Shown: positions 21,485 through 52,316 of the stretch, piece by piece
How positions within the stretch are numbered: the stretch's first letter is position 1
Layout of the letters: each line of letters begins with the position of its first letter
NCBI RefSeq assembly: GCF_023698535.1
Contig: NZ_JALJCL010000009.1
Location: 62,001 to 126,000 of the forward strand
DNA: 64,000 nucleotides
Origin: Halorientalis regularis
GTDB taxonomy: Archaea > Halobacteriota > Halobacteria > Halobacteriales > Haloarculaceae
Reading direction: 5' to 3'
Position numbers and translations under genes: made by a program
Notes under the pieces: model-generated
Told to the model about the DNA's origin: nothing
The model's input: only the letters and a program-made list of their open reading frames with translations
Databases searched by the model: none

Positions 21485-21609
21485 CCACCTTTTTGGCGAG
21501 GGGGTCGGGGGCGACTCCCTCGCCAAAAACGTGGGCAAAAAAGGCTGAAGCCTCACTCCGTTCGGCTTCAGTGAACCGCGCCTCGCGCTGCTCGGCGCGG
21601 ATGCTAGTT
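21485..21609 (+). repeat. Palindromic element copy A (left bracket of archaellin island)
   Basis: It starts CCACCTTTTT, with a 13-bp stem TTTTTGGCGAGGG (21490-21502) / CCCTCGCCAAAAA (21517-21529). The core AAAAACGTGGGCAAAAAAGG follows at 21525-21544. The variable module is stem CTGAAGCC (21545-21552), loop TCACTCCGTTC, stem GGCTTCAG (21564-21571). GTGAACCGCG follows and the element ends GCGCGGATGCTAGTT (21595-21609). The same parts in the same order occur in copy B on the other strand. Confidence 0.7.
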
Positions 21610-21829
21610 CCCAGGATAGAGGATCAATACATCTTCACCCCTCCGGTTCATAGAGTTGTACGTCTGATCAAGAATAATCAAAATAAATCCCGGCAGAATC
21701 ATAATTCGACTGCGGACTGTTGCTCAGTTTCGCTCACACACTGAGACGACACTCCACCGTTGTCATGATGATTTTCGAGAAGTCACAGAGAAAACACAGG
21801 TAATCTCAATTCTGAAACTCGTGCGCCAG

Positions 21830-22993: not shown

Positions 22994-23353
22994 AACTAGC
23001 ATCCGCGCGAGCAGGGCGGGACCGGAGGTCCCGCTGGCAGCCGGCGCGTCGTCGTTCGAAAGGCGCGAGGCGCCTTTCGTGATGTCGCCAGACGCCGTCG
23101 GCATCTGGCTGCTAACCAGAACGCGGAGCGTTCTGGTGATGACGAGAGAGCTTTGCTCTCTTGAACCACGCCGGCGACGAAGCGAGCGCGGTTCACTCGG
23201 CGCGAACGCAGTGAGCGCCGAGCGGTTTTTCACGCACGTTTTTGCAAGTAGTGCGGGAGCAAAGCTCCCGCAGACCATGCGAACGGGCGGCTTCGCCGCC
23301 CGTGAGCAGACGGGGGTTCGCTCCGCGAACCCCCCGCAGTAAAAAGATGCTAG
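22994..23353 (-). repeat. Palindromic element copy B: eight-hairpin cluster (right bracket of archaellin island)
   Basis: On the minus strand it runs from the pitA stop (CTAGCATCTTTTT) to GCGCGGATGCTAGTT (22994-23008). It includes eight perfect hairpins. Seven have 3-nt loops and 7-10-bp stems: 23016-23034, 23057-23079, 23116-23136, 23145-23161, 23252-23272, 23283-23303, 23312-23334. One is the 8-bp stem / 11-nt loop module: CTCGGCGC (23196-23203), GAACGCAGTGA, GCGCCGAG (23215-23222). Core AAAAACGTGCGTGAAAAACC lies at 23224-23243 on the minus strand. No protein gene is credible here. Confidence 0.7.
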
Positions 23354-37824: not shown

Positions 37825-37956
37825 ACTAGCATCCGGCGGCCTCTGGCCGCCGGTTCCTCGCGAGCGCGACCGGCGGTCGCGCTCGCGCCTTTTTTCGCCC
37901 ACGTTTTTACAAGGGGGGTTCGCCTCCGGCGAATCCCCCCACAGTAAAAAGGTGGT
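37825..37956 (-). repeat. Palindromic element copy C
   Basis: In the minus orientation it starts CCACCTTTTT (37947-37956) and ends GGATGCTAGTT (37825-37835). It contains the core AAAAACGTGGGCGAAAAAAGG (37889-37909) and three long triloop hairpins: 37834-37854 (9 bp, loop TCT on plus strand), 37860-37888 (13 bp, loop GGC) and 37914-37941 (12 bp with one bulge, loop TCC). The last hairpin is clearly homologous to the one at 23312-23334 in copy B. Confidence 0.7.
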
Positions 37957-49906: not shown

Positions 49907-51295
49907 ATGGAATGGTCCGGTCCAGCCGAGGCGTTACTCGAACACGCCCGGGACAAGATCGTCGTTCTCGACGAGGAGGGGACCTTCCGCTACCTGAACC
50001 GGGCGACAGCGGAGGTTCTCGGCTTCGACCCCGAGGAACTCCGTGGGGAGACCGCCTTCGAGTACATCCACCCCGACGACCGCGAACGGGTCCTGTCGCG
50101 GTTCGAACGGCTCGTCGCGGGTACGGAGTACGACAGGACGGTCGAGTACCGCCATCGGACCGATGACGGGTCCTACGTCTGGCTGGAGAGCCGCATCGCC
50201 GAACTCACCGACCCGGAGGAGGGGTACGTCGTCAGCTCGCGGGACGTGACCGAGCGCGTCCGGGCCGAACGCGAGCGCGACGCGACCGCCGAGCGACTCG
50301 AAGAACTCGCCGCCAAGGCCGACGACGTGCTGTGGATGTTCTCGGCCGACTGGTCGGAGTTGCTCTTTCTCAACGCGGCCTACGAGTCGATCTACGGCCA
50401 GCCGGTCGAGGACATCCGGGCGGACCCCCGGCGCTTCCTCGAAGCGACCCACCCCGACGACCGGTCGGCAGTTCAGGACGCCATGACCCGTCTCTCGGCC
50501 GGCGAATCGGTCGATATGGAGTACCGCGTCAACCCCCGGCAGGACTACAGCTGCTGGGTCTGGGTGCAGGCCGAGCCGATCTTCGAGGCGGGCGAAGTCG
50601 TCCGGATCGTCGGGTTCACACGCGACGTGACCGACCGGCGACGCCGCGAGCGACAGTTGCGCGTGATCGACACGCTCCTCCGACACAACCTCCGCAACGA
50701 CCTCAACACCGTCATCGGCCACGCAGAGTACGTGTCCGAACACCCAGAAGACGATCCGCCGAGCCACGCCGCAGCCATCGAGCGAACCGCCCAGGCACTG
50801 CTCCACAAAGCCGAGAAACAGCGCCGGACTATCGAGTTGCTCACCGATCCCGTCACGCCGTGTCGAGTCGATCTGACGACCACCATCGAGAACGCCATCG
50901 CGACGGTCGAGGACGACTACGATGTCGACGTGGAGACCGACCTCCCGCCGTCGCTGCCGGCCTGTGCGCTCGGCGAGATCGGCACCGCGATCCAGGAACT
51001 GCTCGGCAACGCCGCGAAACACGCCGACGACGCGCCGTGGATCCGGATTACCGCGGCGCAGGTCGACGACCGCGCCGTCGTCGAAATCGAAGACACCTGC
51101 CCCCCGATCCCCGACTACGAGTACCGCGTCCTGACCGGCGAGCAGGAGATGGACGACGTCACCCACACCAGCGGCCTCGGCCTCTGGCTGGTCTACTGGG
51201 TCGTCGACCTCTCGGACGGCACCATCAGCTTCGAGACCGACGACGACGGTAACACCGTCACCGTCTCACTGCCGCTGGCAACGTCGGAACCCTGA
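49907..51295 (+). CDS. PAS-PAS sensor histidine kinase
   Basis: A 462-aa soluble kinase. PAS 1 is at about 5-125 (FRYLNRATAEVLGFDPEELR), PAS 2 at about 135-250 (DDVLWMFSADWSELLFLNAA). The H-box is VIDTLLRHNLRNDLNTVIGH near residue 260. HATPase_c has the N-box LLGNAAKHADDA, but the G1 motif reads IEDTCPPIPDYEY in place of D-x-G-x-G-I, while G2 HTSGLGLWLVYW is intact. The altered G1 could weaken ATP binding. TTTTTTATC about 25 nt before the ATG gives a leaderless promoter. Confidence 0.87.
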   Translation: MEWSGPAEALLEHARDKIVVLDEEGTFRYLNRATAEVLGFDPEELRGETAFEYIHPDDRERVLSRFERLVAGTEYDRTVEYRHRTDDGSYVWLESRIAELTDPEEGYVVSSRDVTERVRAERERDATAERLEELAAKADDVLWMFSADWSELLFLNAAYESIYGQPVEDIRADPRRFLEATHPDDRSAVQDAMTRLSAGESVDMEYRVNPRQDYSCWVWVQAEPIFEAGEVVRIVGFTRDVTDRRRRERQLRVIDTLLRHNLRNDLNTVIGHAEYVSEHPEDDPPSHAAAIERTAQALLHKAEKQRRTIELLTDPVTPCRVDLTTTIENAIATVEDDYDVDVETDLPPSLPACALGEIGTAIQELLGNAAKHADDAPWIRITAAQVDDRAVVEIEDTCPPIPDYEYRVLTGEQEMDDVTHTSGLGLWLVYWVVDLSDGTISFETDDDGNTVTVSLPLATSEP

Positions 51296-51341
51296 AACCG
51301 TCCGCAAAGCCGCGCTCACCCCTCCGCGCAGATCTCCACGA

Positions 51342-51445
51342 CCACCTTTTTCCCGCTCGGGTGCGCTTCACGCACCACTCGCGGCAAAAACGTGGGCGAA
51401 AAAGGCCGGTCGCTCGCTCCGCTCGCGACCGGTACGACGGACTAG
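51342..51445 (+). repeat. Palindromic element copy D (tandem with copy E)
   Basis: CCACCTTTTT (51342-51351), inner hairpin GGTGCG/CGCACC (51360-51376), core AAAAACGTGGGCGAAAAAGG (51386-51405), then stem CCGGTCGC (51406-51413), loop TCGCTCCGCTC, stem GCGACCGG (51425-51432). It ends TACGACGGACTAG, which runs into a duplicated fragment of the hisH 3' end (51443-51510). Confidence 0.75.
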
Positions 51446-51510
51446 CGCTCCGCACAGATATCGACAAAATTCCGCAGAATCTGCAGTCCCGTCTCCCCCG
51501 ACTTCTCCGG
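51431..51510 (-). pseudogene. Duplicated 3' end of hisH (truncated copy)
   Basis: These 80 bp are identical to 51601-51680, the last hisH codons plus stop and flank, 170 bp away. It encodes only about 22 C-terminal residues with no start, so it is a dead fragment. A more degraded third trace may lie at about 51320-51341 (CCTCCGCGCAGATCTCCACGA). Confidence 0.85.
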
Positions 51511-51512
51511 AT

Positions 51513-51615
51513 CCACCTTTTTCCCGCTCGGGTGCGCTTCACGCACCACTCGCGGCAAAAACGTGGGCGAAAAAGCCGGGTGCTCACTTCGTTCGCACCC
51601 GGTACGACGGACTAG
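51513..51615 (+). repeat. Palindromic element copy E, abutting the hisH stop
   Basis: CCACCTTTTT (51513-51522) through AAAAACGTGGGCGAAAAAG is identical to copy D. The module stem is CCGGGTGC (51576-51583), loop TCACTTCGTTC, stem GCACCCGG (51595-51602): a different but fully paired stem. After it the sequence is again identical to D. The terminal ACTAG contains the hisH stop codon (51612-51614). Confidence 0.75.
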
Positions 51616-52316
51616 CGCTCCGCACAGATATCGACAAAATTCCGCAGAATCTGCAGTCCCGTCTCCCCCGACTTCTCCGGGTGGAACTGCGTGCCGAAGA
51701 CGGTCCCGCTCTCGTCGGCGATGATACTCGGGAAGTCGGGTCCGTAGTCGGTCGTCGCGACCACCGCCGCGTCGGCCTCGGGTTCGGCGTAGTAGGAGTG
51801 GACGAAGTAGGCGTGGTCCCCGTCGACGGAGCCGCCTTCGGCGACTCCGTCTGCCTGTGGGATCTGCGATCCCACGCTGTCGACCCCGTCGACCAGCGGG
51901 TGGTCTCGCTGTACGTCGAGTTCGTTCCAGCCCATGTGGGGCACCTTCTGGTCGCCGTGGAACCGCCGGTTGGTCCCGGGGATCAGGTCCAGCCCTTCGG
52001 CCTCGCCCTGGCCGGCGTGGTCGGCCTCCTCGCTCGTGGTCAGGAGCATCTGCATCCCGAGGCAGATGCCAAAGAGCGGCGTGCCCGCGTCGGCGGCGTC
52101 GGCCAGCGCCGCCCGGAAGGGGCCGGCGTTCTCCATGCCCTCGCTGAACGCGCCGACGCCCGGGAGGACGATGCCGTCGGCGCTGTCGACGGCGGCCGGT
52201 TCCTCGATTACTGCCACCGACGCGCCCGCCCGCTCCAGCCCGCGGGTCACGCTCCGGAGGTTCCCCAGCCCGTAGTCGACGACGACCACTTCGGCGGCCG
52301 TCTGGGTCGCACTCAT
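51612..52316 (-). CDS. hisH: Imidazole glycerol phosphate synthase, glutaminase subunit HisH
   Basis: A 234-aa class I glutamine amidotransferase giving ammonia to HisF in histidine synthesis. VVVDYGLGNLRSVTRGLERA is the family start; the nucleophile is Cys85 in FGICLGMQM; His and Glu are in QFHPEKSGETGLQIL. KVPHMGWNEL and AYFVHSYYA are conserved. Residues about 147-166 (SVGSQIPQADGV, then AEGGSVDG) are an extra segment between HPLVDGVD and DHAYFVHSYY, encoded by two triloop hairpins; most HisH lack it. The ATG at 52316 was chosen over 52343 because MSATQTAAEV fits the acidic, short N-terminus. Confidence 0.93.
   Translation of the reverse strand: MSATQTAAEVVVVDYGLGNLRSVTRGLERAGASVAVIEEPAAVDSADGIVLPGVGAFSEGMENAGPFRAALADAADAGTPLFGICLGMQMLLTTSEEADHAGQGEAEGLDLIPGTNRRFHGDQKVPHMGWNELDVQRDHPLVDGVDSVGSQIPQADGVAEGGSVDGDHAYFVHSYYAEPEADAAVVATTDYGPDFPSIIADESGTVFGTQFHPEKSGETGLQILRNFVDICAER
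51825..51875. repeat. Two triloop hairpins inserted in frame in hisH
   Basis: Hairpin 1 (51825-51851): GACGGAG / CTCCGTC plus inner CGCC / GGCG, loop TTC, one C-A mismatch. Hairpin 2 (51857-51875): GTGGGATC / GATCCCAC, loop TGC. Stem lengths and 3-nt loops match the hairpins of elements B and C. They correspond exactly to the non-conserved HisH segment. Confidence 0.65.

Follow-up and report, generated by a model that had tools for sequence, protein, structure and literature searches.

Two paired but different hairpins in copies of a dispersed short element behind hisH of Halorientalis regularis

The hisH locus and its two elements

We analysed the region behind hisH in a 64,000-nucleotide stretch of Halorientalis regularis DNA (hereafter the window), where two copies of a short dispersed element carry hairpins of different sequence within nearly identical flanks. 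Reading along the minus strand from the hisH stop codon (51612-51614), nine nucleotides are followed by a first hairpin 2, C-TTTTTCGC, the element core, a second hisH tail, a different hairpin 2, the same core and a third tail, beyond which lies a convergent kinase gene (Table 1). The locus therefore holds two elements and three tails in total. The third tail was overlooked in the first-pass annotation, as was the extension of each element past hairpin 2, via another hairpin, to AAAAAGGTGG. The element has the architecture hairpin 2 - TTTTTCGCCCACGTTTTT - hairpin 1 - AAAAAGGTGG, and its core (CCCACGTTTTT-hairpin 1-AAAAAGGTGG) measures about 55-65 bp, has imperfect inverted ends and lies directly behind a gene's T-run. 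These ends comprise terminal inverted repeats, CCCACgTTTTT and AAAAAgGTGGG, with a single G.G mismatch, and the predicted fold pairs both ends. Hairpin 2 of copy 1 is also present in the sister species G004. Rfam returned nothing above the gathering score in 51200-51800.

Table 1. Coordinates of the features behind hisH and of further element cores in the window
Feature	Position	Strand	Sequence or junction	Remarks
hisH (imidazole glycerol phosphate synthase glutaminase subunit)	51612..52316	-		Open reading frame, C-terminus ...FVDICAER*; relatives in named haloarchaea
Hairpin 2, element copy 1	51576..51602	-	CCGGGTGC GAACGAAGTGA GCACCCGG	Nine bases past the hisH stop; DNA fold -9.2 kcal/mol, z -5.1
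Element copy 1	51513..51575	-	C-T-run TTTTTCGC, then core CCACGTTTTT-hairpin 1-AAAAAGGTGG	Core 51513-51566; core fold -20.5 kcal/mol, z -6.2
Second hisH 3' tail	51433..51512	-	X1, GGTGG / ATCCGGAG	Includes stop codon; resembles a target-site duplication; 72/72 identical over the compared tail
Hairpin 2, element copy 2	51406..51432	-	CCGGTCGC GAGCGGAGCGA GCGACCGG	DNA fold -10.4 kcal/mol, z -3.0
Element copy 2	51342..51405	-	CC-T-run TTTTTCGC, then core	Core 51342-51395, identical to that of copy 1
Third hisH tail	51316..51341	-	X2, GGTGG / TCGTGGAGATC	Diverged (VVEICAEG*); original downstream end; X2 identical in G004
Convergent PAS/histidine-kinase gene	49907..51295	+		Open reading frame; adjoins hisH in several congeners too
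Further element core	21485..21534	-		Hairpin 2 and T-run upstream, to about 21572
Further element core	37899..37955	+		Hairpin 2 upstream, from about 37857

The duplicated unit of about 170 bp that the first-pass annotation had described lies where it was placed, with correct coordinates and sequences: 51433-51510 equals 51603-51680 exactly. The match claimed on the element side also stands, as 51342-51405 and 51513-51575 differ only by a single additional G (GGCCGG versus GCCGG) beside the hairpin. Both hairpins have perfect 8-bp stems that differ at two pairs, so that the swapped stems do keep their pairing. Three changes exist in the loop, where transitions had been reported, and their nature is more specific: each hairpin reads stem-GA-RC-GNA-GY-GA-stem on the hisH strand, and because the R and Y positions pair in this arrangement, two of the changes make up a further compensated pair (G-C to A-T), and the third falls on the unpaired N of a GNA triloop. 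Across the genome of this species, R and Y are complementary at 33 of the 37 places with the loop motif GCTCRCTNCGYTCGC (other strand). Altogether the copies differ by three compensated pairs, one loop base and one indel, with nothing else in about 144 nt; by simple arithmetic, seven uniform substitutions over 171 nt would all fall within 27 nt with a chance of about 2e-6. We take the tandem G.A mismatches and GNA triloop to resemble the very stable d(GCGAAGC) mini-hairpin.

A dispersed family with duplicated gene tails

The genome to which the window belongs has 49 places that match the element. For comparative work we assembled 84 oriented copies from the window and 80 stretches of 20 kb in five congeneric genomes; the stretches were mostly picked around known matches, and the copies are accordingly a non-random sample. 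A strict core pattern was found in 82 of 146 genomes of the family and in 17 of its 22 genera (reversed-pattern control, 0 matches), with only sporadic occurrences elsewhere in the order. Partial matches occur on plasmids of Halomicrobium, Haloarcula, Halorientalis, Halarchaeum and Haloferax, and phage records gave no match. Among named organisms, Halomicrobium urmianum gave the best match. Searches with motif strings and for haloarchaeal palindromic repeats found no description of the element in the open-licence literature, although one may exist elsewhere. In genomes of genus g7, GCGAGCGANCGNAGNGAGCGAGC hairpins with a nested pair of tandem G.A mismatches are numerous; since such GCGA-type hairpins are borne by genera that lack the core, this class predates the element or extends beyond it.

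Directly behind AAAAAGGTGG, 24 of the 84 copies have a repeat of the upstream gene's 3' tail, 28-126 bp long (displaced control, 1/322), and in nearly all cases the duplicated tail contains the stop codon. Orientation is fixed: the upstream coding-like gene reads into hairpin 2 in all 24 repeat-flanked copies, and a sense stop lies within 250 nt upstream in 24/24. The arrays that we read have N elements and N+1 tails, the final tail being element-free, and empty sites exist, with orthologs of the L171 gene in G000, G001, G002 and G005 having neither the element nor a second tail. The 24 flanked elements thus resemble insertions with long target-site duplications, which is not what the simple tandem duplication of the first-pass annotation would leave. 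Slippage or unequal crossing-over could in principle have produced a recent plain tandem duplication, with no mobile element and with later divergence of the hairpin, and the perfect or near-perfect repeat arrays L211, L235, L238, L264 and L271 indicate that unequal exchange does expand arrays. We nevertheless regard such an origin as very improbable here, given the element-free final tails, the empty orthologous sites, the occurrence of the element at dozens of unrelated loci, and the two hisH junctions, X1 and X2, which differ from each other while X2 recurs in G004.

The clearest view of the inserted unit comes from the L211 gene. In G004 this gene has the same hairpin-CTTTTTC terminator, with no core and no comparably long duplication; in the window's species (G000) the duplicated segment spans precisely that hairpin and T-run. 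The comparison identifies hairpin 2 plus T-run as the target gene's own terminator and the core as the inserted unit, and to judge from sequence the end of the duplication roughly coincides with the expected end of the transcript. At L241 and L191, hairpin 2 and further hairpin modules stand between stop codon and T-run in one copy only, and the history of hairpin 2 therefore varies among sites. The hisH gene of G007 is followed by a hairpin and T6 only. Among orthologs of the L211 gene (L288-L294), degenerate last codons (DSEER, stop) lie downstream in most congeners, beside other hairpin modules, and tail duplication at this gene seems to have happened repeatedly.

Elements that lack a tail repeat show a different boundary. 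In 32 of these 60, the stop of a convergent gene lies -3 to 12 nt from the GGTGG end, compared with 9/840 random positions and 0/24 repeat-flanked elements, and in 10 cases the GGTGG end meets the convergent stop codon at 0 nt; the distance is no more than 6 nt in 32 of the 60. No proposed mechanism, ours included, accounts for such exactness.

At hisH, the insertions are ancestral and common to congeners. G000 and G004 have the same outer junction, GGTGG / TCGTGGAGATC, and G004 shares the inner junction GGTGG / AGTTCCACC with G005, which makes the array older than the species. Tail identity within species is 72/72 in G000, 70/72 in G005, 63/72 in G006 and 58/67 in G004, compared with at most about 89% between species. 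In an array this old, identical tails reflect homogenisation (concerted evolution) within species and give no date for the duplication, so that identical flanks are no proof of a recent one. The first-pass annotation had also raised an assembly artefact as the source of the identical flanks, which is unlikely because independently assembled congeners show the same kind of arrangement. The functional G000 tail, GGAATTTTGTCGATATC, is closer to the spare tail of G004 than to the functional one, as if the end of hisH in G000 had been overwritten from a spare copy. In G004 an insertion sequence appears to lie inside the spare hisH tail, and the array is split over two contig ends (the end of L112, and L119; contigs C82 and C65).

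Replacement of whole hairpins and pairing in the family

A search for other copies with matching flanks and different stems, as the first-pass annotation had proposed, found arrays L281, L279 and L278, whose hairpins are still paired. Together with the window, these make four arrays in which the whole hairpin differs within an identical or near-identical frame. The replaced unit is hairpin 2 in the window and hairpin 1 in G000 C12 (L281), where 106 identical nucleotides precede it; L279 belongs to G003, and L278 belongs to G004 and has older, less similar tails than L281 and L279. In L281 and L278 the last element has the same hairpin 1 across both species and the first elements have another class, indicating that the hairpin difference there is older than the tail identity. 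Comparing the locus across congeners likewise revealed unrelated hairpins in orthologous elements at the same junction: those at orthologous sites in G000, G001, G003, G004 and G006 differ in length and loop, and nearly all are well paired. The earlier suggestion that the hairpin is replaced as a unit is thereby borne out as a description, and it suggests some process of hairpin exchange.

Pairing is maintained well above chance. Among 60 distinct hairpins, collected by a search in which pairing was not required, 557 of 600 cells are Watson-Crick, and without the outermost position the count is 516 of 540, the remainder being 11 G.T, 3 A.C and 10 others. In an alignment of 42 hairpins, 97.1% of cells pair, about 2% are wobble, and two-sided changes outnumber one-sided ones by 109 to 3; this set excluded most hairpins with an open outermost pair, which inflates the pairing percentage and barely affects inner pairs. 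Covariation in the same alignment is 0.709, as against 0.160 when shuffled and 0.05-0.09 when slid. A family-wide pattern with no imposed pairing gave covariation in 184 of 228 cells, versus about 72 when shuffled, with 11 G.T and 13 A.C.

Such figures could also be expected if the hairpins were terminators or other RNA or DNA structures that were compensated stepwise under selection for pairing, with flank identity due to gene conversion only. The strong covariation agrees with this explanation, as does the position of the hairpin next to a T-run, like known Haloferax terminators (PMC7237163). The counts of G.T and A.C, which serve as a test of RNA-level against DNA-level pairing, are divided: at the internal pairs of the 60-hairpin set G.T exceeds A.C by 11:3, whereas in the family-wide set, at 11:13, it is no higher. 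Stepwise compensation is difficult to reconcile with the selected 42-hairpin set, in which only 3 cells changed on one side but 109 on both and wobble is about 2%. Nor does it readily explain why orthologous sites and three further arrays differ in the entire hairpin, loop and length included. We therefore judge stepwise compensation unlikely, and the scarcity of one-sided states is better fitted by unit exchange.

Alternatively, each hairpin may itself be mobile, and replacement may be an insertion coupled to a deletion at a fixed position, with no templated copying. Congeners do bear different hairpins at exactly the same position, additional modules such as AGCATCC-hairpin-GGTTCAC sit at fixed points, and the deletion-coupled insertions and switch repeats of Haloquadratum provide a precedent (PMC3119063). 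The new hairpins nonetheless stay within the frame classes GCCGCGAG..CGAGCGGG and CAAGGAG..CGACGCAG, a pattern that points to copying between related elements and makes independently mobile hairpins, in our assessment, improbable.

Proposed origin and relation to known systems

With moderate confidence, we propose that a short, non-coding mobile element is present at the site in two copies, that it probably doubles as a bidirectional terminator and that its hairpins are exchanged as units. The core would insert behind a gene's T-run with a long, variable target-site duplication, so that the gene stays intact. T-runs directly behind stop codons on both strands suggest that they terminate transcription in both directions, and the element has the layout of an intrinsic-type archaeal terminator, with T-run, upstream hairpin and preceding stop codon, as far as can be judged from sequence. 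In Haloferax volcanii, T-stretches terminate transcription, and 503 termination sites have an upstream hairpin, one of which was tested in vivo (PMC7237163). Insertion may take place at the transcription complex as it terminates: single-stranded DNA exposed there could permit a long staggered break, which would account for the orientation, the right boundary and the variable length of the duplication. The tails would then be homogenised by recombination or gene conversion among themselves, gene conversion being very efficient in H. volcanii and polyploid haloarchaea (PMC8223754). Hairpins would be swapped by short templated exchange, in which an extruded palindrome is broken and repaired from another element of the dispersed pool, or the template is switched to such an element, in either case by way of the conserved T/A-run arms. 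The window would accordingly represent an old hisH array whose tails and cores were homogenised within the species and in which hairpin 2 of one copy represents a different hairpin allele, hence the identical flanks with a compensated stem.

Several observations weigh against this proposal, and the short-tract exchange of hairpins is its weakest step because such a swap is far shorter than known conversion tracts and has no exact donor in the genomes searched. Tracts in Haloferax span hundreds of base pairs to kilobases, compared with a swap of 27-40 nt here (PMC8223754). Neither this genome nor seven congeners contain an identical donor for the hairpin of copy 2; its 21-mer GCGAGCGGAGCGAGCGACCGG has no other place in the 8 congeneric genomes, and the nearest hairpin in its own genome (C40) differs by one inserted T. 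The first-pass argument that random drift would leave mismatches agrees with the window, where the stems stay paired, but arrays L265, L266, L267 and L268 do have ordinary one-sided changes. In addition, we identified no mobilising enzyme, and no long copy with an open reading frame occurs in the 1.6 Mb of sampled stretches.

Three candidate mechanisms were considered and set aside. Duplications of variable length brought to mind an origin by reverse transcription, akin to long interspersed nuclear elements or diversity-generating retroelements and target-primed, but PF00078 (RVT_1) was found in 0/19 genomes, with control genomes positive. Mobilisation by a resident IS200/605-type enzyme (PATE-like) is not supported in the carriers G001, G069 and G141, which lack Y1_Tnp (PF01797) and have 13, 14 and 18 strict copies, respectively; a resident Y1 gene is therefore unnecessary for carriage, and such an enzyme may have mobilised the elements in the past. 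Synthesis of the second hairpin arm by fold-back from the target's first arm is plausible at L216, whose last tail breaks off within the hairpin, and is not general because elsewhere the empty site already has the complete hairpin.

Among described systems, the SMRs of Haloquadratum walsbyi are similar in being haloarchaeal, with inverted ends, many copies, no transposase gene and a strong target preference; they measure about 80-110 bp, and their mobilisation has been called enigmatic (PMC3119063). SMRs cause no target duplication (PMC3119063), whereas 24 of our 84 copies are flanked by direct repeats (gene tails of 28-126 bp), and the element further differs in its hypervariable hairpins and in its use of gene 3' ends as targets. 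The deletion-coupled insertions and SwitchRepeats of Haloquadratum are comparable in that the sequence at one exact position differs between related genomes (PMC3119063), yet the replaced unit here is a hairpin within a conserved T-run/A-run frame. Miniature inverted-repeat transposable elements (MITEs) are likewise short, non-coding and dispersed, with inverted ends and a duplicated target; their target duplications are of fixed length, in contrast to the 28 to 126 bp found here, and no parent transposon was identified for the element in the sampled stretches. The repetitive hairpin-forming or double-hairpin elements of mitochondria, in the part of the source available to us, are compact, often double and tandem, show complementary substitutions and have an inferred mobility (PMC2800124). 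They are organellar, and that part describes no gene-tail duplication (PMC2800124), whereas the present element sits at archaeal gene terminators. Haloferax terminators share the hairpin and following T-run directly behind stop codons, between convergent genes (PMC7237163); ordinary archaeal terminators, unlike the element, form no dispersed sequence families and have no flanking gene-tail duplications. We thus file the element with the short non-autonomous hairpin elements, outside MITEs and outside SMRs, the latter judged by description rather than by sequence. That it is an element inserting at termination sites independently of reverse transcription, with duplication of the last 28-126 nt of the transcript, and that it has a dedicated exchange of hairpin cassettes, which would make it a new mobile or recombination system beyond a variant MITE or SMR, is a tentative and rather doubtful extension.

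The element connects the evolution of hairpins with terminators and with short non-coding mobile repeats, subjects that are usually studied separately. If our proposal is correct, many haloarchaeal terminators would be mobile elements or have been captured by them, and gene C-termini would be repeatedly duplicated and might be rewritten from spare tails, as the likeness of the G000 hisH tail to the G004 spare suggests. Unit exchange could moreover yield compensated stem changes of the kind normally taken as proof of selection on RNA structure, which would call for caution in covariation-based RNA discovery. The family also offers a system in which to study Haloquadratum's unexplained deletion-coupled insertions and the enigmatic mobilisation of SMRs.

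Variations on the basic architecture occur in the window and beyond. Two further window elements, at 21485-21610 (-) and 37828-37955 (+), have an AGCATCC-hairpin-GGTTC module between the gene end and hairpin 2, and this module recurs ahead of many elements genome-wide. Extra hairpin modules lie within the frame, between TTTTTCGCCAC and CCACGTTTTT, at L190 and L117 (the same locus), L175, L185 and L226. A variant at 23160-23340 (+) in the window has the hairpin CTCGGCGC GAACGCAGTGA GCGCCGAG, T-runs TTTTTCACGCACGTTTTT and several extra palindromes in place of the simple hairpin 1.
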